Below are positions 2,753 through 34,506 of a DNA stretch of 35,333 bases, piece by piece. Below the pieces are notes generated by a model that saw only the letters and a program-made list of their open reading frames with translations, did no database searches and was not told the DNA's origin. Position numbers and translations under genes: made by a program. The stretch is taken from the NCBI GenBank assembly GCA_020442065.1, contig JAGRKZ010000120.1, positions 1 to 35,333 on the forward strand. The letters run 5' to 3'. How positions within the stretch are numbered: the first letter of the stretch is position 1; each line of letters begins with the position of its first letter. Source of the stretch: Bauldia sp. GTDB taxonomy: Bacteria > Pseudomonadota > Alphaproteobacteria > Rhizobiales > Kaistiaceae.

Positions 2753-5179
2753 ATGGCCGATCGCCAGATCTCCATCCGTCTCGCCGTTGTCGACGGCAAC
2801 AAGACCAAGGCGGAGCTCCGCTCCGTCGGCGACGAGGGCGACAAAAGCCTCAACAAGATCGCGACGGCCGGGAAGCCTGCCTCCTCGGCGTTGAAGGCGA
2901 TTGACGCCGCTTCGCGCGACCTCGGTGGTCAGTTCGGAAGCCTCACCACCCGGCTCGGGCCGGCCGCCGCTGCGCTTCGTGCCCTTGGTCCGGTCGGGGT
3001 CGGCGTCGCCGTTGGTCTCGGCGCCATTGCCGGCGTGATCGCCGCCGGGCTTCCCCAGTTCGCCGAGGCCGAACGGATGGCGCTCCGGCTCGAACAGGTG
3101 CTCAGGGCCACCGGCCATGCCTCTGGTCTTACCGCGCGGGAGATCAGGGCGCTCGCCGACGAGACCGAGCGTTCGACTTTTGCTACCGCCGAGGAGGTCC
3201 AGGAAGCGGCCGCGGTGCTTGCTACCTTCCGCTCGGTCCAGGGCGATACCTTCCGCCAGACGCTGGTTCTTGCCCAGGACCTCTCCGCTGTCTTCGGCCA
3301 GTCACTCACCTCCTCAGTGACCCAGCTCGGCAAGGCGCTGGAGGACCCGATCCAGGGGATCAGCGCTCTCCGCCGGGTCGGCGTCTCCTTCAGCGCCACC
3401 CAGCGCGAGATGATCGAGGGAATGGTCAAGGCCGGCGATGTCGCCTCCGCCCAGAAACTCATCCTTGAAACCCTCGCCAAACAGGTGGGTGGCGCGGGCG
3501 AGGCCGAGGCGTCGGGTCTCGCGGGGGCCTTCGATCGCGCCAAGGACGCGGTCGGCAACTTCCTCGAAGGGATTGTCGAGGTGACCGGGATTGCCGGTGC
3601 CACCGAGGCAGCGCTGGAAAGAATCGCCGGCGGCATCAAGCGGGTCAACGACGCCCTCTTCACCGAGTGGCCGATCGGCGAACAGGTGGTTGCCGCCAAC
3701 CGGGAGCTGATCGAAGCGCAGGATAGGCTCGCGACACTGGAGGAACGGCTTGGTGACATGACCGGCCGCGCCCGCGCGGTCGCCGAAGCCCAGGCCAGGC
3801 AGCTCCGCGAGCAAGTCGCCGATCTGGAGGCCGAGGTCGAGGCGCTGATCGAGCGCGGCCGTGCCGAAGTGGCCGAGATGGAGCGGGCGGAGGCGGGCCG
3901 GGCCGCCGCGGAAGCCAACGCGAGGACGGAAACAGCGCTTGGGCGCCTTCGGGAGCTCAGGGAGGAGCTGGAGGGGCTCGGGACGACCGACGAGAAGATC
4001 GCGGCGGTCAACATCAAACTCGCCGAGACCGTCGCGCAGCTTGATGCGCTCCGCAATCCCGATGGCTCCAACGTTACGGCGATCGAGGATGCCATCAATG
4101 CCGCGACTGAGATCGCCCGCAGGCGGATCGAGGCTCTGGAGAAGCCGGCGCTCGACGCCGCCGAGCGCCAGGCCGAGACCACCAAGCGCCTCCTCGACGA
4201 TCTCGGACGGGCGATCGACTCCTTCGGCGACAAGCGTGCCGAGTTCGTCGAGAACTATCTCAAGCGGCTTGGCGAGGGCGTTGCTCCTGAGGTCCGCGTC
4301 GAGGTCGAGGCGCTCGCCAATCGGCTCTACGACTTGAAGGAAGCCGAGACGGCCGCGGCGGAGGCGACCCGATCCCAGTCAGAACTGATGTCGGAGGGAA
4401 GATCCGTCACCGAGGCCAACCGTACCGCGACCGAGCGTTATGCGGACGAGATTGCCCGGCTGAACGGGCTGCTAGCAGCCGGCGCCATCGACCAAGAGAC
4501 CTATGCGCGGGCAGCGGATTCCGCCGCCGATGCTCTCGAACAGGCAAACCGGGCCGCGCTGCAGTCGGCGACCGACGCGCAATCGGGCCTGAAGCGCGCG
4601 ATCGACGACTATCTCGCCACGGTCCGAGACTCTGCCAAGCGAGCCGAGGACTTCCTAAAGGACGCGTTCTCCGGAATCGAGGACGCGATCGTCCAGTTCG
4701 CCACCACCGGCAAGCTCGAAATCCGGTCCCTCGCTGACTCCATCGTTGCCGACCTGATCCGCATCCAGGTCCAGAAGTACATCACCGGACCACTCGCCGG
4801 GTTGCTGGGAGGTCTCGTAGGGAGCGGCTCGGGCGCCTCATTGTTCACCGGCCTCTTCCACCATGGCGGACCGGTCACTGCCGGCGCCGGGGCCAGCCGC
4901 GGTCCGGTGCCTGCCTTCGCCTTCGAAGGCGCACCGCGGCTTCACGGCGGCGGCATGATGCTGCGACCCGACGAGGTGCCGGCGATCCTGCAGACCGGCG
5001 AGCGGGTGCTCTCTCGTCGCGATGTCGCCGACCTCGGCCGCGATCGGAGCTCCGCGCTGGCGCCGATGGTGGTGACCTTCAACGTCACCACGCCGGATGC
5101 AGGCTCGTTCCGGCGGGCACAGGGTCAGATCGCTGCCGAGATGACCGCGGCGCTCGAACGCGCGCGGCGCAATCTATAG
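2753..5179 (+). CDS. Tail tape measure protein (lambda gpH type)
   Basis: An 808-residue protein, the longest helical protein of the tail module, which sets tail length. A Gly/Ala/Val-rich hydrophobic segment lies near residues 80-105. Long Ala/Glu/Arg-rich coiled coils run from about 300 to 620. The C-terminal part, around residues 620-760, has ATTGKLEIRSLADSIVADLIR, then Gly-rich FHHGGPV and PAILQTGERVLSRRDV, the lambda-family tape measure C-terminal signature. It follows the frameshifted chaperone by a few bases, as expected, because the chaperones coat this protein. At roughly 1.5 angstrom per residue it would give a tail of about 120 nm (inference). Confidence 0.9.
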   Translation: MADRQISIRLAVVDGNKTKAELRSVGDEGDKSLNKIATAGKPASSALKAIDAASRDLGGQFGSLTTRLGPAAAALRALGPVGVGVAVGLGAIAGVIAAGLPQFAEAERMALRLEQVLRATGHASGLTAREIRALADETERSTFATAEEVQEAAAVLATFRSVQGDTFRQTLVLAQDLSAVFGQSLTSSVTQLGKALEDPIQGISALRRVGVSFSATQREMIEGMVKAGDVASAQKLILETLAKQVGGAGEAEASGLAGAFDRAKDAVGNFLEGIVEVTGIAGATEAALERIAGGIKRVNDALFTEWPIGEQVVAANRELIEAQDRLATLEERLGDMTGRARAVAEAQARQLREQVADLEAEVEALIERGRAEVAEMERAEAGRAAAEANARTETALGRLRELREELEGLGTTDEKIAAVNIKLAETVAQLDALRNPDGSNVTAIEDAINAATEIARRRIEALEKPALDAAERQAETTKRLLDDLGRAIDSFGDKRAEFVENYLKRLGEGVAPEVRVEVEALANRLYDLKEAETAAAEATRSQSELMSEGRSVTEANRTATERYADEIARLNGLLAAGAIDQETYARAADSAADALEQANRAALQSATDAQSGLKRAIDDYLATVRDSAKRAEDFLKDAFSGIEDAIVQFATTGKLEIRSLADSIVADLIRIQVQKYITGPLAGLLGGLVGSGSGASLFTGLFHHGGPVTAGAGASRGPVPAFAFEGAPRLHGGGMMLRPDEVPAILQTGERVLSRRDVADLGRDRSSALAPMVVTFNVTTPDAGSFRRAQGQIAAEMTAALERARRNL

Positions 5180-5189
5180 GGATCGAGAC

Positions 5190-5774
5190 TTGCCCGGCTT
5201 CCATGACGTCTCGTTCCCTGACGCCATCGCGCGGGGAGCAACCGGCGGCCCGGAGTACTCCACCGACGTCGTGATGGTCGGCTCAGGCTACGAGCAGCGG
5301 AACGTCAATTGGGCTTCGGCCCGCGCCCGTTACGACATCTCGACCGGCATCCGCACCCGCGAGCAGATGGCCGAGGTGATCGCTTTCTTCAGGGCAAGGA
5401 AGGGACGCGCCTACGGCTTTCGTTTCCGCGACTGGGCTGACTTTGAGGCAGTCGACCAGCCGCTGGTCGAAGTGACCACCACGGTCTGGCAGCTGGCCAG
5501 GCAGTATCCGAGCGGTCCTTATGCCGACCTCCGCACCATCACCAAGCCGGTGTCGGGGACCGTGGTCGTGAAGGTCAACGCCAATGTCGTGTTGCCCTCA
5601 ATCGATCATCTCACCGGGCGCGTCACCTTCGGCTCGCCGCCCGTGGCCAACCCGACTGCGTCCTTCCTGTTCGACGTACCCGTCCGCTTCGACACCGACC
5701 ACCTGCAAGTCGTCTCGCCCGCCTATCACCTGCAAAATATCCAATCGATCCCGCTGATCGAGATCAGGGCCTGA
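5190..5774 (+). CDS. Distal tail protein, DUF2460 family (GTA gp12-like)
   Basis: A 194-residue protein beginning MPGFHDVSFPDAIARGATGGPEY, diagnostic of the DUF2460/TIGR02217 family. Further family marks are YEQRNVNWASARARYDISTGIR and GRAYGFRFRDWADF. In the Rhodobacter GTA the equivalent forms a ring between tail tube and hub. The start is TTG at 5190, preceded by AGGGATCGAG; no better ATG fits the conserved N-terminus. It comes right after the tape measure and before the DUF2163 protein, the canonical GTA-type order. Confidence 0.9.
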   Translation: MPGFHDVSFPDAIARGATGGPEYSTDVVMVGSGYEQRNVNWASARARYDISTGIRTREQMAEVIAFFRARKGRAYGFRFRDWADFEAVDQPLVEVTTTVWQLARQYPSGPYADLRTITKPVSGTVVVKVNANVVLPSIDHLTGRVTFGSPPVANPTASFLFDVPVRFDTDHLQVVSPAYHLQNIQSIPLIEIRA

Positions 5775-5781
5775 CCACCCG

Positions 5782-6618
5782 ATGAAGACCGTCTCTCCCG
5801 CGCTCGCCGCTCACATCACCGGCGAGGTGACGACGCTCGCGAGTTGCTGGCGCCTCGATCGGACCGATGGCTGGGTTCGCGGCTTCACCGACCACGACCA
5901 GGACATCGTCTTCGAGGGCGTCACCTATGTCGCAGCGACCGGCTTCCTGCCGAGTGCCGTGAAATCCGGCTCCGACCTCTCGGTCGACAACCTCGATATC
6001 GAGGGGTTTCTGGATGATGACGCACTCAAGGCCGCGGACTTGTCCGCCGGTCTCTTCGACGGCGCGAGGATTGAGGTCTTCCTGGTCAACTGGGCCGCCC
6101 TCGGCCAGGGCAAGCTGATCCTCCGAAAAGGCTGGCTCGGCGAGGTCAAGCGCGCTGACCAGCGCTTCTCCGCCGAAATCCGCGGTCTCGCCAACCTCCT
6201 CCAGCAGACCCACGGCAAGCTCTATTCGCGGCTCTGCCGCGTTGATCTCGGCTCATCCGAGTGCACGGTCAACCTCGCTCCGCTCAGCGATGACGCAACC
6301 GTCGACGAAGTCGTAGCCGCCGATCAGATAATCATTACGACCGCGCGGCCGTCAGGCTTCTTCACCTTCGGCAAGGCGACCTTCCTCACCGGCGCAAACG
6401 CCGGCGCCTCGAACGAAGTGCTCCTCCACGATCAGCAGACCATCCGCTTCTTCGTGCCGATGACCCGCCCGATCGCCGTCGGCGACACCGTCCGCCTCGT
6501 CACGGGCTGCGACAAAACCCCAGAGACCTGTCACGCCAAGTTCGGCAACATCCTCAATTTCCGGGGCGAGCCGCACATCCCGGGAAATGACAAGGTGTTC
6601 TCGTACCCGGTGCGCTGA
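5782..6618 (+). CDS. Tail hub protein, DUF2163 family (GTA gp13-like)
   Basis: A 278-residue protein with an N-terminal DUF2163 domain (about 15-165; GFTDHDQDIVFEGVTY is characteristic) and a C-terminal domain with RLVTGCDKTPETCHAKFGN and NFRGEPHIPG, typical of TIGR02218. Four cysteines (C152, C161, C243, C250) lie in the conserved positions; I recall that the GTA hub homologue was reported with a bound iron-sulphur cluster, not checked. It begins eight bases after the preceding stop. It is the last tail gene before the 4.7-kb antisense insertion; its usual partner, the NlpC/P60 gene, only appears at 11333. Confidence 0.9.
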   Translation: MKTVSPALAAHITGEVTTLASCWRLDRTDGWVRGFTDHDQDIVFEGVTYVAATGFLPSAVKSGSDLSVDNLDIEGFLDDDALKAADLSAGLFDGARIEVFLVNWAALGQGKLILRKGWLGEVKRADQRFSAEIRGLANLLQQTHGKLYSRLCRVDLGSSECTVNLAPLSDDATVDEVVAADQIIITTARPSGFFTFGKATFLTGANAGASNEVLLHDQQTIRFFVPMTRPIAVGDTVRLVTGCDKTPETCHAKFGNILNFRGEPHIPGNDKVFSYPVR

Positions 6619-6727: not shown

Positions 6728-9700
6728 CTAATTCTCGTTCTCGGGATGGGCGTCGCCAAAGGTGACTACGATTGAAGGCGCCTCGGCTAAACCTACAAGC
6801 TTGACGCCATTAAGAGGACGCACCGTTGCGCGATTGGCGGGATCCAGTATCAGTCGCACCTCGTCGCGGTAACCCTCCTCTAGACCGCTCACTAAGGCGA
6901 GAATGAAGTCGTTACCGCGTTCCTTCGCTCGCTCGTATTCGGCGTTGGACATTTCGACGGAGCTTTGAGGGGAGCGTCCCGTCGCTTTCATTTCGACAAA
7001 GGTCTTCCAGCTGATCGCACCATCTGCACCGACGCCATGACGATTCCGGAAGTCCACTAACTCATCTTCGGCCGAAGTCTCCAATGCCTGCGCGAGCAGC
7101 TCCCACGCGCGCTGATCGAGATCGGCCTGCGTGTATGCTGAGGGAGCGGAGCGCGACGCTGGATCGGTCGGTCTGCTAGGCGGAGGTGTGTCATGCAGAT
7201 TTGGTTTGGGCTGTGGGGCCGTCGGCTTCGCTTCGCCGCCGGTGACAACGATGGCGCCTACGATCGGACCAATGTCTTCCTTAAGCTTGCGCAGCTTCAC
7301 GTTAGGTCCCTTTCCAGACGGTGCGCTCACCGAGATCTTCTTTTTGGGCGCCGCATTGATCTTGGCCACACGATCTTGCATGGCCTCGGCGTGCTCTTCG
7401 TCGGATGCCAGTCGAATTGCCACCGTTGCAGCCTCGCGGCCTTCCTGCCAGGCAACCACCCATTCCGCCTCGATGCCGCGACGTGATGCGGCAGGAAATA
7501 AGGATGCGATCGCATGGCCGCCGTATTCTCGTTTTGGCAGCGCGTCCTCCCACGCGTGCAGTTCCAGCGGACTAAAGGTAAGAAGCGCCTCAAGCTCAAT
7601 AGCGATGTTGCCGGATGATAGTTCCTCGTCTTTGGCCGAGACCGCGATAGGGTTCGGATAAACGAACAATGGAATCTCGCGCAATTGGTCCCACGCGATA
7701 GACATGTGCTCTCGAGTTTCGGGATTGTTCCGCGCGAGTTCATCTGACAGGTGATCGACAGCCCGAACAAAGTGCGCCCTGACTCCATCGCCTCGATCTC
7801 GTGCAGCCTCCCGGTCATCCGTGACCCTCAGGCTAGGCGATCTGCGTGTTACCCCTGCAAGAGCGATCAGCTGCGGTAGTTCACGCACGTCGCATGGCGG
7901 CGTCCAGAGCCTGCGATTGGGAAGCGCCTTCGCTAACTGGTTTCGCAGTTCCGGATCATCGATGAAGAACATCGGCCGTTCGGATTGCCATCGATCGGCG
8001 CAATGCAGCGGAAGTGTTTTCAGTCGCTCACGATGCCTGCGCTCGGCGTGTTGCAACAGGGGCTCGATGTATCGATAGACATCGATCAGGCTGGCCGTCA
8101 CCTGAACGTCGTAGGGTTGGCCTGCCACCCTTTTCAGGAAGGACAAGCAATCATCTAGCGATGGCTCACGCACATCGAGAGCCGCCCATAGAGTTGTGTA
8201 GGCCGGCCCCCCCGGCACGAAACGCGCTCGATCGTGGAAGATGTCCTTGCCGCGAAGTAGGTCTGAGGGTCGCCGCCAAGCGTCGCCACCGATGTATATG
8301 AGTCCCATCCCCTCCGCGAACCTAGCTCGTAGTTCTTGGGCGGTGAGATCGCCAATCCGTGTGTTCCACCCAACAGTAGTCGGTACGTGCTTGGCGATGT
8401 TCCGATACACCTGCATGACCTGAGAGTCGTTGGGATGCTCGCTTCCATCGCGCAGATCGCGCAAGAGTGTCACCAGATCACTGACGCGCACCGAGGTGAT
8501 TAGACCGAGCGTGGTCGCGAAATCTGCCCCGAAATCATTCGGCTCGATGTCCACTACGAATGCGGTGTTTGCGTAAAGTGTCTGGGTCTCGGATGTCTTC
8601 ACAACCGCTGCACTCGGCGCAACGAGGTCTCCCTTGCCGATCGCGATCCATTCGGTCTCGCGCAATTTGACGAGCCAGTCCGCGGTGACCGACGACCTTG
8701 CGTAGGTGTAAACGCGTGCCACGTGCTGCGAAGCGACCGTCTTTCTATCCGCATAGCGGCGTTCCCAAGCGCGCGCCAATGCCTTGAGCAGCGCGGGGCT
8801 ACGAACCCGCAAGTCTTTCTTTGACAACTTGGGGAAGGCGGCGAGAACACGCTCCAAATCGGGCGAAACATAATCGCGCGGCACTAGCTCGGCTCCAACC
8901 GCGCGTAACTCGCGGACCCGCGTGGTCCCGCCCCAGCGCACGGCTCCCGTCTCGTTCAATCGGGGTGCGGTTTCCGCCCCGAGTAGCATCAGAAACTTCC
9001 GCGGGCCACGCGAAACAACGCCATCCGCCCGCCTGCGGGAGTGTCGCGTTGCGCCCGTCTTCAGCTGCTCATCATATCGCGCCGCGATCCATTGGATTGC
9101 GGGTAGCGTTCCCGCCGCTGTGGGCCAATACGGAAAGTCGGAGTCCAACGTCTTGCAGAGGTATGCGTCACCGGGAGAGACCTTTTGGCGATGTGGCTTG
9201 CCAGCCTTGTAGACGTAGCCGTCCAGAAGCAAGACAGAGCCAACATCGCGACCAAGTTCCTCCGCCCTGCGATCGCTCAGTTCATCAAAGCGGTCGCGCA
9301 GTTCACGTAAGTCCACATCTTCGATCTGCAGCTTCTCATCGTCGAAGCGTTCCGCGAAGGCGGCGAGTTCGGTCTCGGCATCAACGGTCGTTCGGAACGC
9401 GGCGTTCTCGGCGAGCCAAGCGACAACAACGTCGCCGTCATCTCCAAGCTCGTAGGCAGGATGCAACCGGTCCAAGAGATTCCAGCGAGTGGCAAAGTGG
9501 GATGCCTCTCCGCCAAGAATCAATGGTTTCGCGGTTTCTCCCGCACGCAGACAAGACAGCGCGCGGCCGTCATCGGAAAGCCAGATTGGCACATTGAATA
9601 GTTCGTCATCATCATGGCACTCGATAAGAATGCGGGCCGCCTTGACCCACCACGCAGGTGTCTTGGGAGTGAATAGGTTGCGCTCGAAACCATTCAGCAA

Positions 9701-11167
9701 TTCCCCTGTGCCAACCCTCGTGCAAGCATCAATCTCGTCGAGCACCGCGCGCCAACGCTCCGCGCCATCGCGTACGTCTTTCGGTAGCGCGCGTGCATCT
9801 TCGACCAAGAGCTCAATATCGGTGTCGGTTAAGAAGCCGGTTAGTTCCTCCTCCTCGTAGGCGATACGCGCAAGCGGCACGGGTCCGTCTTGCAGCGCGA
9901 TAAGGGCCTCCTCGCCGATGCGTTGTAGTGCCGCTTCGAAGGCCGCCGCGAAAGCAGCCCGTGGCCAGCGGTCGGCCTCATTCCCGATGTGCTCGGTCGA
10001 TAACGGCACGAAACGCCACGCCTGCTTTGGAGCTGTCGTGAGCAATCCGGACGCGATCTCAGCGAGAACATCGCCACAGCGCTGAACAAGCCAGTTGTTC
10101 CAAGCATTCGCGATTAAGGCGTCACGCGCCGTGCTGGGATCGAACTGGGCGTCAACCGAAAACGACAACCCGACGGGCACACGGGTCTTGAATCCTATGA
10201 ACAGACTCCCGGTAATGCCCTCGCGAGCGACCGCCACAGAGATATGTGTGGTCTCGCTTCGAGCTTTGTGTGCCGGATGCAGATGTTTGGGAACTGTTAG
10301 CGACGCCTTCCATACCGTCCACGATTGGGAGTCGCCGTGTACCTCTCTAGATGAAAGACTCGAGAGCACACCGTTCTTCTGAACAAGCTGAACATCGCAC
10401 CACGCACCGAACTCTAACGTGCGCCCTTCGACGGTGCTTCCGGCCAGGTCACACCACCGAAAACTCGAAACAGAGGTCAGGAAAAGGAGGCCGTCGTCAT
10501 CCCACGCGTCGAACCAGGCCTTGAGCTCGCGCTCATCAAAATCCGTCTTGAGATTAAGGACGATGAGGGTATCGCGCGCCGGGTCGTAGAACCCCGGTAG
10601 CGTTGTTTCCGCACCAACTACGTCAAGCGACAATTGATCGCCGGAGAAATGATAGGGGTCCGAGTGGATCGAGAGTCGGTCAGCGATGCGCTTCAAAGTT
10701 TTAAGGCCGATGCCGAAGCGACCCCGCTGATCCGGACGATTCGTTTTTGTGGTCAGGAATGGCAATGCCATGCCAAGCACATGCTGACAGGCGACGGGCT
10801 GCCCGTTATGGACGATCAGGAGTTGGCGACCCTCAGGGTTTTCTCGAAATGCCATACGAACGTCGGTGGCCCTGAGATCATCGGCGTTCTGTATGAATTC
10901 AACGAGCCCCTGAAACGGCTCGACGTTCAAGTCCTCGGCCGCCGCAGCCGCGCTGCGCATCATTTTCTTGATGGCGCCCGGCGACGTCGCGAGCGCATTC
11001 GCTAGACCAACGACGACGCCGGTGGCGAACTCCGTCGTCCGTGGGTCTATGATATCGTCTACACCCTGTGCGTCCTGCCATATTAGCTGCGCGGCGGCCG
11101 CACCCTCCTCAGCATGCCTCTCTGAGGCCGTATCTTGCGAAACCGTCGCCTGTTCGCTCGCTGTCAT
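6728..11167 (-). CDS. Sacsin-like GHKL ATPase with C-terminal DUF3883-like nuclease domain; candidate defence gene
   Basis: About 1479 residues from ATG 11167 (MTASEQATV), which has AGG nine bases upstream; the frame opens 36 codons earlier but that part looks non-coding. N-terminus: GHKL ATP-binding fold of the sacsin/Hsp90 type, with LVEFIQNADD (E90, N94), a G1-like LLIVHNGQPV (about 117-126) and GRFGIG (149-154). The long middle (about 250-1280) is unrecognised. C-terminus: VDFRNRHGVGADG then FVEMKATG, giving D1372, E1392 and K1394, the PD-(D/E)XK pattern of DUF3883; EYERAKERGNDFILALVS matches that family's ending. It lies antisense between two adjacent tail genes, and GC is about 58% in two sampled lines, against about 67% in a sampled hub-gene line. 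ATPase plus nuclease suggests sensing and DNA cleavage; the role is inferred. Confidence 0.75.
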   Translation of the reverse strand: MTASEQATVSQDTASERHAEEGAAAAQLIWQDAQGVDDIIDPRTTEFATGVVVGLANALATSPGAIKKMMRSAAAAAEDLNVEPFQGLVEFIQNADDLRATDVRMAFRENPEGRQLLIVHNGQPVACQHVLGMALPFLTTKTNRPDQRGRFGIGLKTLKRIADRLSIHSDPYHFSGDQLSLDVVGAETTLPGFYDPARDTLIVLNLKTDFDERELKAWFDAWDDDGLLFLTSVSSFRWCDLAGSTVEGRTLEFGAWCDVQLVQKNGVLSSLSSREVHGDSQSWTVWKASLTVPKHLHPAHKARSETTHISVAVAREGITGSLFIGFKTRVPVGLSFSVDAQFDPSTARDALIANAWNNWLVQRCGDVLAEIASGLLTTAPKQAWRFVPLSTEHIGNEADRWPRAAFAAAFEAALQRIGEEALIALQDGPVPLARIAYEEEELTGFLTDTDIELLVEDARALPKDVRDGAERWRAVLDEIDACTRVGTGELLNGFERNLFTPKTPAWWVKAARILIECHDDDELFNVPIWLSDDGRALSCLRAGETAKPLILGGEASHFATRWNLLDRLHPAYELGDDGDVVVAWLAENAAFRTTVDAETELAAFAERFDDEKLQIEDVDLRELRDRFDELSDRRAEELGRDVGSVLLLDGYVYKAGKPHRQKVSPGDAYLCKTLDSDFPYWPTAAGTLPAIQWIAARYDEQLKTGATRHSRRRADGVVSRGPRKFLMLLGAETAPRLNETGAVRWGGTTRVRELRAVGAELVPRDYVSPDLERVLAAFPKLSKKDLRVRSPALLKALARAWERRYADRKTVASQHVARVYTYARSSVTADWLVKLRETEWIAIGKGDLVAPSAAVVKTSETQTLYANTAFVVDIEPNDFGADFATTLGLITSVRVSDLVTLLRDLRDGSEHPNDSQVMQVYRNIAKHVPTTVGWNTRIGDLTAQELRARFAEGMGLIYIGGDAWRRPSDLLRGKDIFHDRARFVPGGPAYTTLWAALDVREPSLDDCLSFLKRVAGQPYDVQVTASLIDVYRYIEPLLQHAERRHRERLKTLPLHCADRWQSERPMFFIDDPELRNQLAKALPNRRLWTPPCDVRELPQLIALAGVTRRSPSLRVTDDREAARDRGDGVRAHFVRAVDHLSDELARNNPETREHMSIAWDQLREIPLFVYPNPIAVSAKDEELSSGNIAIELEALLTFSPLELHAWEDALPKREYGGHAIASLFPAASRRGIEAEWVVAWQEGREAATVAIRLASDEEHAEAMQDRVAKINAAPKKKISVSAPSGKGPNVKLRKLKEDIGPIVGAIVVTGGEAKPTAPQPKPNLHDTPPPSRPTDPASRSAPSAYTQADLDQRAWELLAQALETSAEDELVDFRNRHGVGADGAISWKTFVEMKATGRSPQSSVEMSNAEYERAKERGNDFILALVSGLEEGYRDEVRLILDPANRATVRPLNGVKLVGLAEAPSIVVTFGDAHPENEN

Positions 11168-11332
11168 GTCACAACCTGCGTGTTTGCCAGGTTTATCGCT
11201 ACCCGAGTGTACAACCCGCTTTGTATGACGCCGAGGGCGTTGATCTGATTCCAACGGGTTCTTGGAAAGAGGCATTCAGGTCGGTAGCGCCCCGGATCTC
11301 CCCAGCCAGCACCTGCGCGGCATTCCATCATC

Positions 11333-11776
11333 ATGAACAGTCGTTTCCTGCGATCGGCCCTTCTCGCCGAGGCCCGCTCGTGGCTCGGGACGCCCTGGCA
11401 TCACCAGGCCGCAGTGAAATGCGCCGGCTGCGACTGCATCGGGTTCGTGCGGGGCGCGGCGGAGCCGTTCATCGGCAAGGTGGACCACCGGATGGATTAT
11501 GCGCCGACATGGCCGCTCTACCGCGCCGAGCCGCTGCTCTTCGCCGAGTTCAAGGCGCGGGCGAAGGAGATCAAGCCAGTGAAGGCAAAGCCCGGCGACG
11601 TGCTGCTCTTCGGTGTCGGCAAGGGACCGGCGCACCATTGCGGCTACCTCGCCGAGAACGGACGGCTGCTCCATTGCTATCGCGAGGCGGGCCAGGTGGT
11701 CGAACAGGACCTCACTGACTTCTGGCGTTCGAAGATCCGGCACGCTTTCCGGCTTCCTGGCATCAGGGACGGGTGA
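11333..11776 (+). CDS. NlpC/P60 tail-tip peptidase (GTA gp14-like)
   Basis: A 147-residue protein of the phage cell-wall peptidase family (NlpC/P60). Catalytic candidates are C35 in AGCDCIGFV and H102 in PAHHCGYL, with H114 as possible third residue; GDVLLFG is the usual strand before the histidine. It would cut peptidoglycan at the tail tip during DNA entry. Its normal neighbour is the DUF2163 gene, now 4.7 kb upstream across the inserted antisense gene. No good ribosome site precedes the ATG (the sequence before it is cattccatcatc), possibly because coupling to the upstream gene was lost. The next gene follows by six bases. Confidence 0.88.
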   Translation: MNSRFLRSALLAEARSWLGTPWHHQAAVKCAGCDCIGFVRGAAEPFIGKVDHRMDYAPTWPLYRAEPLLFAEFKARAKEIKPVKAKPGDVLLFGVGKGPAHHCGYLAENGRLLHCYREAGQVVEQDLTDFWRSKIRHAFRLPGIRDG

Positions 11777-11782
11777 TGCTTA

Positions 11783-12418
11783 ATGGCCCGCCTCGTTCTC
11801 TCCATCGGCGGCATGGTGCTCGGCAACCTGCTGCTGCCCGGTCTCGGCTCAGCCCTCGGCGGCGTGCTCGGGTCCTATGTCGGCGGCATCGTCGACCAGC
11901 AGCTGTTCGGGCCCGAGACGGCCAACAGCACGATCCATGGGCCGCGGATGCAGGATCTCCGGGTCCAGTCGTCCGGCTATGGCGCGGTCATCCCGCGCGT
12001 CTACGGCAAGGCACGGGTCTCCGGCAACGTCATCTGGATGCGCGGCTTCCATGAGGAGACTCGGAGCCAGTCCGAGGAGGTGGGCGGCGGTGGCAAGGGC
12101 GGCGGCGGTGACAGCCAGACGGTCAAGACGGTCAGCTACCACTACTACGCCGACCTGGCGGTCGGGCTCTGCGAAGGGCCGATCGACGACGTGACCCGCA
12201 TCTGGGCCGACAGCCATGCACTGGACGACAACAAGTACGCAGATCTTAGGGTCTATCGCGGGACGAACGGCCAGAGCCCCGACCCGCTGATCCAGGCGGT
12301 CAAGGGCGTGAACAAGACGCCAGCCTATCGTGGACTCGCCTACGTCGTCCTCGAAAAACTCTACATCACGCCCTTCGGTAATCGCCTCCCCAACCTCACC
12401 TTCGAGATCAAGACCTGA
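11783..12418 (+). CDS. Stand-alone paralogue of the tail hub N-terminal domain
   Basis: A 211-residue protein that aligns along its whole length with the first 210 or so residues of the next gene, at roughly half identity by eye. Shared stretches include EEVGGGGKGGGG, SQTV, HYYAD, LCEGP/ICEGP, and KTPAYRGLAYVVLE. The N-terminus is Gly/Leu-rich and hydrophobic (about 1-35), as in the paralogue. It ends with its own stop at the point where the big protein continues into its TIM-barrel region. This is a tandem partial duplication kept as a separate gene; it may form part of the hub or fill alternating positions in it (inference). Stop and next start are three bases apart. Confidence 0.8.
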   Translation: MARLVLSIGGMVLGNLLLPGLGSALGGVLGSYVGGIVDQQLFGPETANSTIHGPRMQDLRVQSSGYGAVIPRVYGKARVSGNVIWMRGFHEETRSQSEEVGGGGKGGGGDSQTVKTVSYHYYADLAVGLCEGPIDDVTRIWADSHALDDNKYADLRVYRGTNGQSPDPLIQAVKGVNKTPAYRGLAYVVLEKLYITPFGNRLPNLTFEIKT

Positions 12419-12421: not shown

Positions 12422-15400
12422 ATGGCCCAGCTTGCGCTGACGCTCGCCGGCGGATGGGCGGGCGGGGCGCTTGCAGGCGGTGTCGGCCGGGCCTTCGGCT
12501 CGTTGGTCGGCGGCTACCTCGGCGCGATCGTCGAGCAGGAGCTGTTCGGACCCGAGCGTGACCCTCACGAGGTCGCCAAGAGCGGGCAGGTCTCGGATAT
12601 CCGCATCTCGGGGTCGGCCTATGGCCAGAGGATCCCGCGGGTGTGGGGACGAGCCCGGCTGCCGGCCAACATCATCTGGCTCCGCGGTATCAAGGAGAAG
12701 GAGATCACCACCACCGAAGAGGTCGGTGGCGGAGGAAAAGGCGGAGGTGGCGGAAGCCAGACCGTCTCGAACAAGAGCTTCCACTACTATGCCGACATCG
12801 CTCTTGGCATCTGCGAAGGTCCGGTCACCTCGGTCTACCGCATCTGGGTCGACAACCAGCCTCTCGACCCGGAGCACGTCGCGGCGTTGCGCATCTACTA
12901 TGGCGAAGAGGACCAGGAGCCCGATCCGCTGGTCCAGGCGGTGAAGGGGGTCAGCAAGACGCCCGCCTATCGCGGTCTCGCCTATGTCGTCCTCGAAGAC
13001 TTCTATCTGACACCGCACGGCAACCGCATCCCGAACTTCGAGGTCGAGGTCTTTCGAGGCTCTCCGGACGGGACGGTCGATGCGCGTCATCTTGTCGAGG
13101 GCGTCTGCCTGATTCCGGCCTCGGGCGAGTTCGCCTATGACACCGAGATCGTCCGGAGCCGCTTGAACCGCGACGCCTCCGATCCTGGCCTGCCGGGGCA
13201 GAAGAATGCCATCAACAGCCACACCGGACAGAAGCGAGCCGACTTCAGGGTCGCCATCGACAACCTCGAACGGGAGCTGCCCAATGTCGGTTGGATCAAC
13301 CTGGTCTATGCCTGGTTCGGCACATCGATCGATGTCGCCACCTGCTCGATCCGGCCGGAAGCCGAATACGCGCCTGATCCGAACGTCTTTCCCGACACCG
13401 CTCCATTCCTTTGGCTGGTGAAGGGGTTCGGGCGAGGTTTCTGGCCACGCGTCTCGACCTCCACGCTTCCGGATGGCTCGATCGGGCTCTCCTACGGCGG
13501 GACCGTCTCGGACGGATCGGTGATCCGGTGCGTCGAGCACCTCAAGGAGCAGGGCTACAAGGTCCTGTTCACGCCCTTCCTGATGATGGACATCCCGCCG
13601 CCAGACCCGAACCCGTTCCCCTGGCGGGGCCGGATCGGTGGCGACGCGGCCGACGTCGAGGGCTTCTTCACCCGGACCGACGGTTATCTCCGCTTCGTCC
13701 GCCACTGCCTCGACCTCTGCGAGCAGGCGGGCGGCGTCGACGGTTTTGTCGTCGGCTCCGAGATGGTGGCGCTCAACCGCATTCGGGGCGGCGGCGACTA
13801 CCCCGCGGTTCCCTTCTGGCAGCAGATAGCGGCCGAGGCGAAGAGCCAACTCGGCTCGGGGACCATCGTCACCTATGCGGCCGACTGGTCCGAATACCGC
13901 TACCACGATCGCGGCAACGGCGATGTCGACTTCCCGCTCGACGCGCTCTGGGCCGACGAGAACATCGACGTCATCGGGATCGATGCCTACTTCCCGCTGA
14001 CCGACGAGCCGGGAAGCGTCAGGGACCGGGCGGCGATTGGGGCCGGCTGGTCGTCGGGCGAGCTGATCGACTTCTACTATGCGAGCCAGGCGGATCGAGA
14101 CCTGCCGCGCCGCGGCGCCAATCGCGTCCGGACCGAAATCGACGATCCCTTCTACGCCATCAAGGACCTCCGCGGCTGGTGGGAGAGCACCCACGTCCCG
14201 CGGGTGAACGGCGTTCCGACCGGACCGGCGACCGACTGGGTGCCGCAGTCGAAGCCGATCTGGTTCACCGAGTATGGCTTTGCCTCGGTCAACGCCTCGA
14301 CCAATCGCCCCAACGTCTTCGTCGACCCAAAATCGGCCGAGAGCGATTACCCCTGGTATTCGAACCGCTCGGTCGACCGAAACATCCAGCGGCTGGCGGT
14401 CCACGCCACCGAAGAGTTCTGGGCCGATCCCGCCAATAACCCCGTCTCGGCTCTCACCGGCAAGAAGATGGTCCAGAGGAAGTTCCTCTGGACCTGGGAT
14501 GCCCGTCCTTACCCCTTCTTCCCGGCGCTCAAGGACGTCTGGTCGGACGGGGAGAATTTTCGGCTTGGACACTGGGTCCAGGGAAAGCTCGGCAACATGC
14601 AGCTCTCGGAAATCGTCAGCGACCTGTGTCTCAGGGCCGGCTTAGCCCAGAGCGACTTCGATGTGTCGGACCTGACCGACGAGGTGGTCGGCTATGTGGT
14701 GACCGAGCGGAAGGCGATCCGGGAGATGATCGCCGTGCTCCAGACCGCCTACTTCTTTGATGCTGTCGAAAGCGGAGGGGTGCTCAAGTTCGTCAAGCGC
14801 GGCAATGGCACCCAGGTGTCGGTCGATCAGAACGACCTCGGCGCCGCTGAGGGCGAGGGCGACCGGGCTAGGGCCAAGATCGAGCGGACACAGGACATCG
14901 AGCTTCCCGTCGCGGTCGACGTGATCCACCTCGCTGAGGGTCGCGACTATCAGACCTCGACGGTGACCGCCCGCCGGCAACTCGGCACCTCCCAGAGCGT
15001 CACCGCCTATTCGCTGCCGCTCGTGCTTTCGGTCGAGGACGCGCAGGCGATCGCCCAAGGAGCGCTCCGCGAGATCTGGCAGGGCCGCGTCGCCATCGAG
15101 GCGAAGCTGCCGACCCGCGGCATTCTGATCGACCCAACGGACGTGATCGACGTTCCCGTGGACGGTGTTCTGCGGCGCTTCCGCGTCACGTCGGTCACCT
15201 ACGGCAAGCCGGGGCTGGTGCTGCTTCGCGGTGTCGCGACGGACGGCGAGCTACCCCAGTTCGTGACGGTGCCTACCGAGAGCGGAGAAATCCCGCCGGT
15301 CGTCCCCGAGCCGGCCGGGCCGATCCGGGTCGAGCTTATGGACCTGCCGCTGATGGTCGAGGCGCATGCCGCGAGCGCCCAGAGCTTCTATTTCGGGGTG

Positions 15401-16249
15401 TGTCCGGTCGGCGGCGGCACCTTCAAGGGCGCCACCCTCTTCCGCGAGACCGCCGATGGGCTCGACTTCACCATCGCCGCCACTGCGCCGCTTCCCTCGA
15501 TGATCGGCGACACGGTCACCTCGCTCGCACCCGGCCCGGCCGACTATTGGGATGAGGTGAACACCGTCGAGGTCCAGCTGACCTTTGGCACCCTCGAAAG
15601 CCTGCCCGATTCCCGCATCCTCAACGGCGCCAACGGGGCCCTCGTCGGCGAGGAGCTCATCCAGTTCGCGACCGCCGAGCTGATCGGACCGAGCCACTAC
15701 CGGCTCTCGCGGCTTTTGCGTGGGCGGCTCGGAACCGAGCACCAAATCGTCACCCATCTACCGGGATCGCGCTTCCTGCTGCTCAATCCCGGTCGGCAGG
15801 TTCGCCCGACCTTCTCCGTCACCGGTCTTGGCATTCCGATCGAATGGACCCACGCGCCGGTCCCGCAAGGCCCGACCGGCGACCAGGCCGGCAGCGCCGT
15901 CTTCGTCAACGCCGGCGGCGGCCTGAAGCCGTGGTCGCCGGTCCAAGAGACAGGGACGCGCAACCCGGCCGGCGATCTAACCATCACTTGGGTTCGCCGC
16001 ACACGATTTGGCGGGTGGTGGCTCGACCATGCCGACGTGCCGCTCAATGAGGAGAGCGAGCGCTACGAGGTCGACATCCTCGACGGCGCAATCGTTGTCC
16101 GGACCCTCTCGGCCTCAAGCCCGACCGTCACCTATGCCGCGACGGAGCAGACTGCCGACTTCGGTGCCCCGCAGTCGTCCGTCTCCGTAAGGGTCTACCA
16201 GCTCTCGGCCATGGTCGGTCGCGGCTGGCCCGCAAGCGCCATCCTCTAG
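12422..16249 (+). CDS. Tail hub/host-specificity megaprotein with TIM barrel (GTA gp15-like)
   Basis: A 1275-residue protein of the GTA gp15 (Rcc01698) family, of normal length. In order: N-terminal hub domain (1-215) with a Gly-rich loop; glycoside-hydrolase-like TIM barrel (about 230-640) with FVVGSEMVALN (E447) and IWFTEYGFAS (E617) at positions of acid/base and nucleophile; tail domain of the phage tail 3 type (about 690-900), with VTERKAIREMIAVLQTAYFFDAV; beta-rich C-terminal domains. It sits at the tail tip and probably contacts the cell surface; sugar-cleaving activity is only suggested by the fold. A fibre gene follows. Confidence 0.92.
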   Translation: MAQLALTLAGGWAGGALAGGVGRAFGSLVGGYLGAIVEQELFGPERDPHEVAKSGQVSDIRISGSAYGQRIPRVWGRARLPANIIWLRGIKEKEITTTEEVGGGGKGGGGGSQTVSNKSFHYYADIALGICEGPVTSVYRIWVDNQPLDPEHVAALRIYYGEEDQEPDPLVQAVKGVSKTPAYRGLAYVVLEDFYLTPHGNRIPNFEVEVFRGSPDGTVDARHLVEGVCLIPASGEFAYDTEIVRSRLNRDASDPGLPGQKNAINSHTGQKRADFRVAIDNLERELPNVGWINLVYAWFGTSIDVATCSIRPEAEYAPDPNVFPDTAPFLWLVKGFGRGFWPRVSTSTLPDGSIGLSYGGTVSDGSVIRCVEHLKEQGYKVLFTPFLMMDIPPPDPNPFPWRGRIGGDAADVEGFFTRTDGYLRFVRHCLDLCEQAGGVDGFVVGSEMVALNRIRGGGDYPAVPFWQQIAAEAKSQLGSGTIVTYAADWSEYRYHDRGNGDVDFPLDALWADENIDVIGIDAYFPLTDEPGSVRDRAAIGAGWSSGELIDFYYASQADRDLPRRGANRVRTEIDDPFYAIKDLRGWWESTHVPRVNGVPTGPATDWVPQSKPIWFTEYGFASVNASTNRPNVFVDPKSAESDYPWYSNRSVDRNIQRLAVHATEEFWADPANNPVSALTGKKMVQRKFLWTWDARPYPFFPALKDVWSDGENFRLGHWVQGKLGNMQLSEIVSDLCLRAGLAQSDFDVSDLTDEVVGYVVTERKAIREMIAVLQTAYFFDAVESGGVLKFVKRGNGTQVSVDQNDLGAAEGEGDRARAKIERTQDIELPVAVDVIHLAEGRDYQTSTVTARRQLGTSQSVTAYSLPLVLSVEDAQAIAQGALREIWQGRVAIEAKLPTRGILIDPTDVIDVPVDGVLRRFRVTSVTYGKPGLVLLRGVATDGELPQFVTVPTESGEIPPVVPEPAGPIRVELMDLPLMVEAHAASAQSFYFGVCPVGGGTFKGATLFRETADGLDFTIAATAPLPSMIGDTVTSLAPGPADYWDEVNTVEVQLTFGTLESLPDSRILNGANGALVGEELIQFATAELIGPSHYRLSRLLRGRLGTEHQIVTHLPGSRFLLLNPGRQVRPTFSVTGLGIPIEWTHAPVPQGPTGDQAGSAVFVNAGGGLKPWSPVQETGTRNPAGDLTITWVRRTRFGGWWLDHADVPLNEESERYEVDILDGAIVVRTLSASSPTVTYAATEQTADFGAPQSSVSVRVYQLSAMVGRGWPASAIL

Positions 16250-19212: not shown

Positions 19213-19618
19213 CACAACTAGCTTAGGGCCCTGTCGACGCTGGCGCGGGTCGTTCTCGCGACCCCCGAAGGGGCGCGCGAACGGCAGGCAAATGGCGCCG
19301 GCAGGGCCGAGGCCTTCGCTGAGTCCGCTACTTGTGTCGTCGTGTCCTTTGTCGGCCGTCAATCCGCCAGGCGAAGCAGCGGGGGCGGGGTTCGCGGGCG
19401 ACCTGCGAACCTAAAGCCCTTAAATCCGTCGCTTGAAGACCCTCTGACTGTGAATTCTTGGCTGCGGCGGGCGCATTGTCCCGGACTTCCGCGGAGATCT
19501 GCGCTAGAGGGGAAGGGCTTGTCGCGGGAGAGATTCGGAGCTTGGCCGCCATATACGGCAACGCTTAGTGTTAGGGGGTCGATCACGCGCAACCGAACCT
19601 AACGCCTGGGCTGGGGAT
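19213..19618. other. Gene-free spacer between lysis genes and defence cassette
   Basis: I see no credible gene in these 406 bases. It holds a GC-rich hairpin (19251-19283, GACCCC-CGAA-GGGGC core, no T run), a 7-bp inverted repeat GGTTCGC/GCGAACC (19389-19411), and a candidate promoter and palindrome in front of the DUF499 gene. This is where the phage backbone ends and the cassette begins. The hairpins may end late transcription before the cassette, but neither has the T tract of a classic terminator. Confidence 0.5.
19542..19603 (+). promoter_or_regulatory. Candidate promoter and operator for the defence cassette
   Basis: TTGGCC (19542-19547) and TAGTGT (19566-19571) are 18 bases apart, a weak sigma-70-like pair. 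Overlapping and just downstream is an inverted repeat GTTAGG (19570-19575) / CCTAAC (19598-19603), which could bind a repressor. The ATG at 19619 follows with GGGG upstream. Match quality is modest. Confidence 0.3.
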
Positions 19619-22600
19619 ATGCCTGTAGCGACCGTAAAGCAGCTCTGCACGCCGAGCAGTCTCGTAACGAGCGACAGCCTCGTCGAGCAAGTCGCTCAGA
19701 TCGAGGATTTTGCGTCCGGCAAGATCAACGGCAAAGAATTCTTTCGCCGCAACTATTTCACCGATGGGCTGCGGCGATTGGTCGAGCGGGGCTTTGAGCG
19801 GCTCGGTGGCAAAACCGATGATGGCGCGTTCTACCTGACCCAGGCGATGGGCGGCGGCAAGACCCACAGCTTGATCGCATTTGGCTTGCTCGCATCCGAT
19901 CCCGCGCTGCGCAAGGAAGTTCTCCCTCGATTGACGTCCGGTGGCGAGTTCGGAGCCGCCAAAGTCGTTATTTTCAATGGCCACCAGAACCCCGACAGTC
20001 TTCTTTGGGGGTACATTGCCGAACAGCTGGGTCGCGTCGAAATCATGACGCCCTTCTGGCGCAATGGCCCACGCACTCCCGGCGTGGACGAATGGGCGGC
20101 GGTTCTGGGCGACGAGCCGGTATTGATCCTTCTCGATGAGTTGCCGAGCTACCTTCAGATGGCTCAGGGCGAGCCGGTGGGAAACTCAACGCTGGGCGAC
20201 CTCACCATCGGCGCATTGGAACGCCTCTTCAACGCCTTGCCACGCTGCCCGCGCGCTTGCGTCGTCGTCACCAACCTGAAGGACGACGTTTATCTCGACG
20301 GCTCAGGGCAGCTGCGCACGCTCATCGAGAGTCTCACCAAGCACTATGACCGCAACGCGCAAGCCATCACGCCGGTTCAGCAGAACACTGGCGAGGTCTT
20401 CGCGATCGTACGCAAGCGTCTGTTCGACGGCCTTCCTACTGCCGACCGCATCGACGAGGTGGCGCAGGCTTACGTAGACGCGCTCCAGAAGGCCAAACGC
20501 GTAGACACGATCGCCACGACGCCGGAGACGTTTATCGAACGAATTCGAGAGACCTACCCCTTCCACCCGTCGATCCGCGATATTGTAGCGCGCTTTGCAG
20601 AGAACCGCGGATATCAAAAGACCCGAGCGCTCATCCGGCTCCTTCGGCTTGCGGTCAGAAGCGCGTTCAACGCGAACGACAACGCCTTCCTGATCGGCCT
20701 TCAGCACCTCGATTTCAACGATCAGGCGACGATAGAGGAAATCCGCAAGATCAATCCCGCCTACGCGAACGCGATTTCGCGCGACATCGCGGATCGGGGA
20801 AACGCACTCGCCGAGCGCATCGACGCGGCCGAGGGCGTTCCAACCGCATCGGCGGTGGCCAAGGTCCTTCTGATGTCGTCACTCTCGACCGCGGAGACTC
20901 CGCTTCGGGGTCTAACCGATGGCGAACTGATCGAAACGCTTGTCGATCCGCTGCTTGAAGTCTCTGAGATCAAGGCGTCGCTCGGCCGTCTGCAAGGACA
21001 GGCGTGGTATCTCTTCCAGGGCGTCGATCAGCGCATCTTCTTCGGCCAGACCGCCAACGTGACTGCCGAGATCACCGAAATCGCCGCGAACATTGCGGAG
21101 GAACAGGTCGATCAAACGCTCAGGGCGAAGCTGCAAGAGGTATTCAAGCCGCGAACCGGAGCGCTTTATTCAGACCGTATGGCGATCCTGCCGGCGCTTG
21201 ACGAAATCCAGCTCGATGATGATCGCCCGACGCTCGTCATCCTCGAGCGTCCGGCCGACAAGCTTCCCCAGGATTTCGTCGATTGGTGGAACAAGCAGGA
21301 TCTCCAAAACCGCGTGCTTGTCCTCACCGCCGATCCGAACGCCGTTACAACGCTCCGCACCAGCGCGCGGCGCATGCGCGCGATCGAGAAGGTCGAAGAG
21401 CGGATCAAAACCCAGCACGGTTCGGCCTCAACACAAATGCAGGAATTGCAGGGCGTGAAGGAACGGGAGGCGGCTGGCTTCACCAGCTCACTGCGGGAAA
21501 CCTTCAAAACGATTGTGTTCCCGACCGGCAAGTCACTCCGCAAGGTCGATGACTTCCGCATGGAGTTCGATCGCAACGACTATTCCGGTGAACAGCAGAT
21601 CGTCGACACGCTGACCAAGCGCGGCAAGTTCATCCCCAGTGACAGATTCGACGCCGAGTTTGAGAACCTCCGCCTCGAAGCAGAGGACCTCCTCTTTGAC
21701 GCCGATGCCGTTCAGCAATCATCGCTCCGCCGCAACGCCGCCATCCGATCGGGCTGGTTCTGGCTTCCCCGCAATGGCTTTGATCAGCTCGTCAAAACGT
21801 CCGTGCAACGGGGTTTCTGGCGGGAGAAGGACGGCCTTGTCGCCAAGAAATGGGAGCGCCGCACCAGGGTGACGGCGCGGCTCGATGATTTTGGACCGAA
21901 CCCGCTCGAAACCGGCCGCTTCATCGTCAACGTAACGCCCGAAGACGCGGATACGGTCTATGTGTCCGAGAAGGGGTTGGCCGATCCATCGCGCGATACC
22001 AAGCTCGACGGCCGCGTCTACGAGACAGAAGCCGCCGCGGCATGGTTCCTCGCCGTCGATAGCAAGGGCGCGGCTACGACGGGCGATCCGTTCGAGTGGC
22101 GCGCACCCATTCGCGTGAAGCCGGATGTGAAGCGCATATCGGGAGGCTACAAGGTCTCCTTCATTGTGAGTCCGCGATCAGCGGTGGTCCGGGCGACCTT
22201 CGACGGGACCGATCCCAAGGCCGGCCCAGTAGTCGGAGCGGAGATCGAAGCCCCTGCCGGAGCCACGAAGCTTCGAGTCGTCGCCGAGGTAGCCGGGCAG
22301 TTCAGCCAGGAAGAAGATGCACCGCTCACCGGGCCAAACGAAGGTCCAGGCGGCGGCTTCACTCCACCAAAAGCCGCGCTGAAGCTGGACGCTCCCGTTA
22401 CGATGACATCCCGTTTCGAGCCGAAGGACACCGCCGCCGCCTTTTCGGCCCTCGATCGCCTCGCGAAGACCGCGGGGACGCAAATCCTCGGAGGCTCGAT
22501 CGAGGTGAATGGCGGTCGCCTCGCTGGGGACTACCTGACGCTTAGGGTCGGCCAGGATGTGAAGGTCGGCGCGAGCGAACTGGACGCACTGGTCAAGACC

Positions 22601-22741
22601 TTGGTCGAAACGTTGAACGCTTCTGCACCCACCGTGAAACTTCGCATCGACGGTATTGCATTCCTGTCCGGACGGGACCTGACTGCCTTTTGTGATGCGT
22701 CGGGCGAGGATTTCGATCGTGTGACGTGGGCACAGGAGTAG
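19619..22741 (+). CDS. DUF499 family ATPase of an anti-phage cassette
   Basis: About 1040 residues from ATG 19619 (MPVATVKQL; a longer frame from 19568 adds 17 unlikely residues). Walker A QAMGGGKTHS lies at 75-84 (K81, T82) and Walker B VLILLDE at 168-174 (D173, E174), with VVTNLKDD as a likely sensor region. FHPSIRDIVARFAENRGYQKTR is a DUF499 mark. The C-terminal third is beta-rich, with GYKVSFIVSPRSAVVRATFDGTDP. It is probably the AAA-type ATPase controlling the complex that recognises or processes phage DNA. It is first of four genes in one direction; four bases separate it from the DUF3780 gene. The family is strongly supported; the mechanism is not known to me. Confidence 0.85.
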   Translation: MPVATVKQLCTPSSLVTSDSLVEQVAQIEDFASGKINGKEFFRRNYFTDGLRRLVERGFERLGGKTDDGAFYLTQAMGGGKTHSLIAFGLLASDPALRKEVLPRLTSGGEFGAAKVVIFNGHQNPDSLLWGYIAEQLGRVEIMTPFWRNGPRTPGVDEWAAVLGDEPVLILLDELPSYLQMAQGEPVGNSTLGDLTIGALERLFNALPRCPRACVVVTNLKDDVYLDGSGQLRTLIESLTKHYDRNAQAITPVQQNTGEVFAIVRKRLFDGLPTADRIDEVAQAYVDALQKAKRVDTIATTPETFIERIRETYPFHPSIRDIVARFAENRGYQKTRALIRLLRLAVRSAFNANDNAFLIGLQHLDFNDQATIEEIRKINPAYANAISRDIADRGNALAERIDAAEGVPTASAVAKVLLMSSLSTAETPLRGLTDGELIETLVDPLLEVSEIKASLGRLQGQAWYLFQGVDQRIFFGQTANVTAEITEIAANIAEEQVDQTLRAKLQEVFKPRTGALYSDRMAILPALDEIQLDDDRPTLVILERPADKLPQDFVDWWNKQDLQNRVLVLTADPNAVTTLRTSARRMRAIEKVEERIKTQHGSASTQMQELQGVKEREAAGFTSSLRETFKTIVFPTGKSLRKVDDFRMEFDRNDYSGEQQIVDTLTKRGKFIPSDRFDAEFENLRLEAEDLLFDADAVQQSSLRRNAAIRSGWFWLPRNGFDQLVKTSVQRGFWREKDGLVAKKWERRTRVTARLDDFGPNPLETGRFIVNVTPEDADTVYVSEKGLADPSRDTKLDGRVYETEAAAAWFLAVDSKGAATTGDPFEWRAPIRVKPDVKRISGGYKVSFIVSPRSAVVRATFDGTDPKAGPVVGAEIEAPAGATKLRVVAEVAGQFSQEEDAPLTGPNEGPGGGFTPPKAALKLDAPVTMTSRFEPKDTAAAFSALDRLAKTAGTQILGGSIEVNGGRLAGDYLTLRVGQDVKVGASELDALVKTLVETLNASAPTVKLRIDGIAFLSGRDLTAFCDASGEDFDRVTWAQE

Positions 22742-22745
22742 AACC

Positions 22746-23414: not shown

Positions 23415-23435
23415 CCATTTCATTCGGGAATTTCA

Positions 23436-34377: not shown

Positions 34378-34468
34378 CGATTCGACTCCTTCCACGCCAA
34401 CGCTTCGATCGAGCAGTGGCGTGGCGATCCCGGTGACACGTTGGGGACGAAAGCCTCCGTGCCCGGAG

Positions 34469-34505
34469 TTTCCGCCTCCCCAGTCTAGCGACGGAGGGGC
34501 GGAAA
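34469..34505. promoter_or_regulatory. Inverted repeat overlapping the ribosome site of the HTH gene
   Basis: TTTCCGCC (34469-34476) and GGCGGAAA (34498-34505) form an 8-bp inverted repeat that ends one base before ATG 34507 and contains the GGAGGGG ribosome site between arms. Further TTTCCG/TTTTCCGCC copies lie in the first codons. This is a good candidate operator for the HTH protein it precedes, in the divergent region shared with the recombinase. Confidence 0.4.
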
Positions 34506-34506
34506 G

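Follow-up and report, generated by a model that had tools for sequence, protein, structure and literature searches.

Why does a gene for 1479 residues interrupt a phage tail operon from the opposite strand? The question is raised by a contig of 35,333 bases (C103), analysed at its full length and termed the window here, within a Bauldia sp. genome of 5.36 Mb in 277 contigs. At positions 6728-11167 of the window, a minus-strand gene parts the genes of a DUF2163 protein and an NlpC/P60 peptidase, as a preliminary description of this DNA had stated, and this single gene has tail genes on both sides. Judged by an end-to-end sequence match, it is a member of the known Tiamat (TmtA) family, which supports the earlier proposal that one gene, carried as a moron, makes up a whole defence system. 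The surrounding element is probably a prophage; the rating reflects the start of the window inside the tail region, so that no head genes are visible, and an integrase gene at 29381-30550. The gene and the parts of its product are listed below.

6728-11167, minus strand: tmtA (Tiamat), lone gene antisense to the tail operon, 1479 residues
10415-10981, minus strand: sacsin SR1/Hsp90-type GHKL ATPase domain, residues 63-251
10877-10900, minus strand: ATP-site motif E90-x2-Q93-N94-x-D96-D97, residues 90-97
10706-10723, minus strand: glycine box GRFGIG, residues 149-154
9722-10414, minus strand: Hsp90 middle-domain-like region, residues 252-482
6761-7144, minus strand: predicted PD-(D/E)XK nuclease domain including NOV_C (DUF3883), residues 1342-1469
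6986-7024, minus strand: predicted metal-binding catalytic motif D1382 ... E1392-x-K1394

The translation contained no internal stop. An upstream ATG at 11275 would extend the open frame to 1515 residues; position 11167 is the better start, since 35 of the 38 aligned sequences (the window's sequence and 37 homologues) have their start no more than 11 residues into the frame read from the ATG at 11167. The PADLOC TmtA profile PDLC03968 matched with 1660.7 bits, aligning residues 15-1473 with profile positions 6-1483 of 1486, and seven further PADLOC TmtA profiles matched less strongly; no match to the protein was found in PHROGs. Accordingly, the view of the gene as an unknown system was rejected on the end-to-end TmtA match. 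Comparison with the Ferrovibrio copy (L051) gave 0.21 differences per nonsynonymous site (pN) and 0.74 per synonymous site (pS), which indicates that the tmtA frame is under purifying selection, while the synonymous sites were saturated against three more distant copies. The GC content of tmtA was 0.593 (0.65 at third codon positions) and that of four measured tail genes was 0.64-0.66 (0.83-0.84 at third positions), in agreement with the lower GC content noticed earlier.

The domain assignments were examined with family profiles, predicted structures and residue conservation, for which the structure alignments took in 102 of the 120 listed homologues (188 were found). In the predicted structure, residues from about 63 to 482 model like the N-terminal and middle domains of Hsp90, and the nearest likeness of the N-terminal domain is to sacsin and Hsp90. 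The NCBIfam sacsin N-terminal domain scored above its cut-off (55.3 vs 50), and the Pfam domain HATPase_c_3 below its own (18.2 vs 25). Residues E90, Q93, N94, D96 and D97 of the ATP site and G149, R150, G152, I153 and G154 of the glycine box were invariant in 103 aligned sequences, with F151 conserved in at least 90% of them. The N-terminus is thus predicted to be a GHKL ATPase of the sacsin/Hsp90 type with an intact site, as had been noticed from the letters. At the C-terminus, the model resembles PD-(D/E)XK nucleases, with an alpha-beta core bearing D ... E-x-K, and D1382, E1392 and K1394 were invariant in the same alignment; NOV_C (24.7 bits, residues 1382-1430) was the sole Pfam domain above cut-off. 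The nuclease-like region described previously is therefore predicted to have the PD-(D/E)XK fold, and metal-dependent cleavage is putative. No relative was found for the middle of the protein (residues from about 483 to 1195), and searches with the whole model were dominated by the N-terminus. The unrecognised part amounts to about 700 residues, fewer than the roughly 1000 first estimated, since the Hsp90-like region extends to about residue 482. As the Pfam and NCBIfam names indicate, the NOV_C and sacsin-type ATPase domains are shared with plant NO VEIN and animal sacsin, which are eukaryotic proteins with cellular roles.

The distribution of TmtA was patchy. A protein search identified 188 relatives among 7994 scored candidates, and the closest of the 120 matches listed was 79% identical over the full length. 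A profile search at the level of the order (E 0.001) gave any match in 16 of 397 genomes and a full-length match in two, the own genome included; at the level of the class (E 1e-50), three of 385 genomes matched, the own genome alone in full length. In a phylum-wide protein search of 398 genomes, the own genome was the sole match among the matches listed, in which at most two candidates were scored per genome. Among plasmids, tblastn matched nine records, of which three aligned with 80% or more of the query; the best was an Aminobacter plasmid relative with 27.5% identity. This relative lies among genes of RecB-like and PD-(D/E)XK nucleases with an integrase gene nearby, the Yoonia copy adjoins an integrase gene, and the Stappia-like copy (G550) lies near a RecB-like AAA_12/RNase_H_2/PDDEXK protein with similarity to PADLOC MkoA and a ResIII helicase. 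Three neighbours of the Ferrovibrio copy were tested and had no Pfam match. Full-length copies in two of 397 genomes of the order, some homologues standing beside integrase or nuclease and helicase genes, do not have the distribution of housekeeping genes.

The idea that a prophage is the typical home of the gene found no support. No TmtA match was obtained by tblastn of a phage collection, and three IMG/VR scans yielded 3, 40 and 16 stretches that fitted the pattern, none a relative; these scans used short exact peptide patterns, which leave room for TmtA in viral contigs. The window's tail genes were not seen at the TmtA loci L051, L052, L053, L082/L083 and L088, and within the sequences searched, the window's copy is so far the only one with a home in a tail operon. 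In the available portions of the articles cited here by PMC number, one survey reports that Actinobacteria nearly always carry Tiamat on the chromosome (PMC10482375), and in Pseudomonas it lies in genomic-island hotspots (PMC12629846). The window's copy thus differs from these in its place inside a prophage tail operon, although it resembles the Tiamat of PADLOC-DB in being a single large protein with a GHKL N-terminus, a NOV_C C-terminus and an end-to-end match to PDLC03968. Millman et al. 2022 is cited as the publication of Tiamat (PMC12926258), and its mechanism is listed as unknown (PMC10482375, PMC12926258). All Tiamat calls (100%) in plant metagenomes fell on plant sequence (PMC12409356), as would be expected if TmtA profiles also pick up NO VEIN-like proteins of plants; as the name NOV_C suggests, these calls are probably NO VEIN proteins.

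The tail genes of the window, all on the plus strand, are listed below in their order around tmtA.

2753-5179, plus strand: tape-measure protein, 808 residues (PHROG 24, 7.2e-42)
5190-5774, plus strand: DUF2460 tail protein, g12-like (PF09343, 1.4e-64)
5782-6618, plus strand: DUF2163/BR0599 baseplate hub protein, g13-like, left neighbour of the insert (PF09931, PF09356)
11333-11776, plus strand: NlpC/P60 tail peptidase, g14-like, right neighbour of the insert (PF00877)
11783-12418, plus strand: gp211, separate paralogue of the g15 N-terminus (PHROG 4271, positions 1-203)
12422-16249, plus strand: g15-like tail protein with a gene transfer agent (GTA) TIM barrel (PF13547, PF13550, PF23666)

The junctions between these genes were compared in a census of 46 contigs, comprising IMG/VR scans with DUF2163 and NlpC, two genomes and the window; members carry a DUF2163 protein 70-79% identical to that of the window, or the window's own. 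Contigs were distinguished by name, so that near-duplicates from one metagenome remain in the counts, and an insert was counted from 300 nt upwards. At least one insert was present in 15 of the 46 contigs. The junction between the tape-measure and DUF2460 genes was never filled (0/41; empty gaps of -3 to 14 nt), that between DUF2460 and DUF2163 was filled in 6 of 42 contigs (empty gaps of 6 to 67 nt), and the busiest site was the NlpC/gp211 junction (9/44; empty gaps of -6 to 10 nt), where the GC content of the inserts was 0.54-0.60 and that of the flanks 0.63-0.68. The gp211/g15 junction was filled once in 43 contigs, with empty gaps of up to 16 nt apart from three measurements of -629 (L115, L210, L216), which are paralogy artefacts where the locus is cut. 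At the DUF2163/NlpC junction, the window alone held an insert (1/44), and in each of the remaining 43 contigs a gap of -3 to 81 nt lay between the two genes, confirming that tmtA separates genes that adjoin elsewhere in the census.

Hence the cargo hotspot proposed earlier held in an altered form. The exact DUF2163/NlpC junction was rejected as a hotspot, showing no turnover among the close relatives. The neighbouring tail-tip junctions, however, were filled repeatedly with unrelated cargo, several items of which are defence-like, and the tail-tip module as a whole combines conserved anchor genes with cargo turnover (15/46 contigs; six unrelated inserts at NlpC/gp211).

Further occupants of the DUF2163/NlpC junction were seen outside the census. 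In more distant relatives (DUF2163 identity of 42-44%), L168 (4855-6856) and L145 (4808-7748) carry 2.0 and 2.9 kb there, and the L168 insert holds an antisense helix-turn-helix gene that weakly resembles CapH, as well as a DUF4258-like gene (under cut-off). The junction is also occupied in GTA-type tail clusters, where 6 of 28 genomes of the bacterial family have a conserved antisense gene encoding about 103 residues (L101, 2599-2910, minus strand; L093, L096, L097, L098 and L108/L111). This gene is under purifying selection (for example pS 0.39, pN 0.11), had no Pfam match, and was matched by nine proteins in a large database, of which three named ones are from Kaistia.

The cargo of the census contigs is, as far as family matches tell, mixed: rich in defence-like genes and not limited to them. 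At NlpC/gp211, L115 carries three genes, namely a PD-T7-5 match (4.7e-15), a DEDDh exonuclease with BRCT matching PDC-S48 (4.1e-33) and a gene of 230 residues without a family. The same junction holds a PD-T4-7-like gene (6.5e-18) in L293 (same contig as L117), a T5orf172-domain protein in L207, L208 and L209, a gene of 235 residues without a family match in L199, and in L204 a protein of 371 residues with a C-terminal NOV_C (1.3e-10), the domain family it has in common with TmtA. DUF305 and MauE proteins (metal/redox-like) were found there in L206 and L217. At DUF2460/DUF2163, the inserts comprise antisense cation-efflux genes (L206 and L217), a sense Na/H exchanger (L285) and a sense HNH_5 protein (L194). 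In L206 and L217, metal or redox cargo is thus split over two junctions within one contig.

All family-matched open reading frames (ORFs) at NlpC/gp211, and all those longer than 100 residues after removal of overlaps, were antisense. With related inserts counted once (L206/L217 once per junction; L207, L208 and L209 once), the antisense orientation was found in six of six unrelated inserts at this junction (one-sided p 0.016) and in 8 of 10 independent inserts overall (p 0.055). The inserts of L121 (375 nt), L284 (1343 nt) and L198 (752 nt) contained no credible gene, the ORFs of the latter two lacking a coding GC pattern, and stand outside these ten; the L206 insert also holds a sense ORF of 86 residues, a possible gene. 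The antisense genes leave 1-109 nt on the convergent side, and most leave 17-57 nt on the start side, where the gap was 165 nt in the window, 183 nt in L217 and 565 nt in L206 (to the last matched gene).

In the window, tmtA lies antisense inside an operon whose genes share one orientation. We consider it reasonably likely that the full-length tmtA protects the lysogen as an ATP-gated nuclease and is silenced by late transcription on induction. In such a scheme, tmtA would be expressed in the lysogen from its own promoter, an infection signal would lead to ATP-driven closure of a TmtA dimer, and the closure would bring two nuclease domains together to cut phage (or host) nucleic acid. Since NlpC, gp211 and g15 lie beyond tmtA, a single late transcript formed on induction would need to pass through tmtA in the opposite direction and may thereby lower its expression. 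A scan limited to sigma-70-like promoters detected no such site upstream of tmtA on the minus strand, and no counter-defence gene for TmtA was identified.

By analogy with Tai in phi80, we propose that TmtA would be expressed in the lysogen and switched off once the prophage is induced; in that phage, the Q-dependent late operon is interrupted by the oppositely oriented taiEcA, whose expression is lowered by Q (PMC11364771). Tai/Ati shares with tmtA the opposite orientation of a defence gene that interrupts a late operon and is expressed in the lysogen, but as a protein Tai differs from TmtA: it acts by blocking tail assembly, a counter-defence gene against it is known, and its gene usually lies upstream of the packaging module instead of at the tail tip (PMC11364771). 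Tha/Ith of S. aureus prophages likewise couples prophage immunity to the life cycle through a noncontiguous operon, but in that system it is the inhibitor that is encoded antisense, and Tha, the defence gene, lies in the cI operon (PMC11087260). Tab of P. aeruginosa phage JBD26 is a late-operon defence moron, apparently with its own promoter; unlike TmtA, it has 83 residues, lies between terminase genes and is accompanied by an anti-Tab gene (PMC10884400). The antiviral hotspots of P2 and P4 are likewise flanked by conserved phage genes and vary in their defence cargo (about 1-5 kb), but they occupy one cos-proximal locus, in contrast to the several successive tail-tip junctions described here (PMC9122126).

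A wider reading, advanced tentatively and with some doubt, would make the tail-tip operon of these alphaproteobacterial phages a defence hotspot in dispersed form: noncontiguous operons would follow one another in a chain, with the antisense orientation itself acting as the self-immunity switch. The late transcript that builds the tail would then silence unrelated immune genes inserted between consecutive tail genes, and TmtA might, with the same reserve, be counted as the largest cargo of the site.

Both proposals have to be weighed against the view that TmtA is a working defence in a neutral place, inserted by chance, without a switching role, and tolerated because genes can be added there without breaking a tail gene. 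The single filled DUF2163/NlpC junction among 44 contigs, the sense inserts of L285 and L194 and the non-defence cargo all suit a chance insertion; this view is nevertheless less likely, given the uniform antisense orientation of the six unrelated NlpC/gp211 inserts and the absence of inserts at the junction of the tape-measure and DUF2460 genes. Chance apart, the likeness of the N-terminal domain to sacsin and Hsp90 could also mean that TmtA serves the host as a chaperone-like or stress protein, in the manner of sacsin in animals, and has no part in anti-phage defence, and the plant-sequence Tiamat calls point to a related architecture in plants. A chaperone role is very improbable in view of the invariant nuclease triad, the few full-length copies in the order, the nuclease, helicase or integrase genes that accompany the Stappia-like, Aminobacter and Yoonia loci, and the listing of TmtA as a defence gene in PADLOC.

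The nature of the element bears on the same choice, for if it were a GTA, TmtA would be cargo in a domesticated cluster of the host. The GTA_TIM, Phage-tail_3 and Rcc01698_C domains of the tail speak for this, but a stronger GTA_TIM match of the host lies on contig C37, where DUF2460, DUF2163, NlpC and g15 follow in order. Moreover, the window's DUF2163 protein is 70-79% identical to those of phage-type contigs vs 41-46% to the remaining DUF2163 matches from the bacterial family, and the window carries the integrase gene. The tail genes do not belong to the family's resident GTA clusters, and a GTA origin, which is scarcely credible, was rejected on the location of the GTA_TIM gene and the phage-type DUF2163 identities. 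The host (G000) has its own GTA-like cluster on C37 (L084) and a third DUF2163-NlpC tail locus on C149 (L110).

A prophage needs its immune genes on during dormancy and off once it is roused. If the orientation of a gene in a tail operon suffices for this without a dedicated inhibitor, it would be a simple and general solution, and the tail-tip site, if the wider reading is true, would be a place to look for unknown defence genes. The junctions from DUF2460 through DUF2163, NlpC and gp211 to g15 may serve as fixed anchors for such a search in alphaproteobacterial phages, and several inserts match no family, among them the genes of 235 residues (L199) and 230 residues (L115). The window also places Tiamat in a tractable phage setting. 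Its TmtA is a new member of a known family, and both antisense defence genes in late operons and prophage hotspots at a single locus are already known; the literature searched, which covered few subscription papers, yielded neither a hotspot that extends across consecutive tail-tip junctions nor a Tiamat gene within a tail operon. Insertions as such had been noticed, since the available text of a study on GTA origins notes that the g11-15 clusters of some phages are variable, with insertions that are uncertain (PMC11409702).

Regarding the names in the tail operon, DUF2163 is that of the preliminary description, and the Pfam names at 5782-6618 are Phage_phiJL001_Gp84_N and Phage_BR0599; the g number of the DUF2460 protein is presumably that of its RcGTA counterpart. 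The gp211 protein is 54% identical to residues 1-210 of g15, and its interpretation as a broken g15 fragment was rejected in favour of a separate paralogue, which is a standalone gene also in L003-L007. A scan for gp211 returned one locus only, already among the loci analysed, and in more distant phages one single gene was matched by both the gp211 and the g15 queries.

No tRNA gene was found in the window. At 19568-29260 on the plus strand, four genes, each with a strong PADLOC match, encode a DUF499 ATPase, a DUF3780 protein, a DUF1156 methyltransferase and a PLD-helicase; this cluster, which adjoins the integrase gene, is a candidate for a second, modification-type defence system. The tyrosine integrase (29381-30550, minus strand) and a large serine recombinase (32845-34734, minus strand) are separated by 2.3 kb that contain two unmatched genes, and the stretch is possibly the border of two mobile elements.

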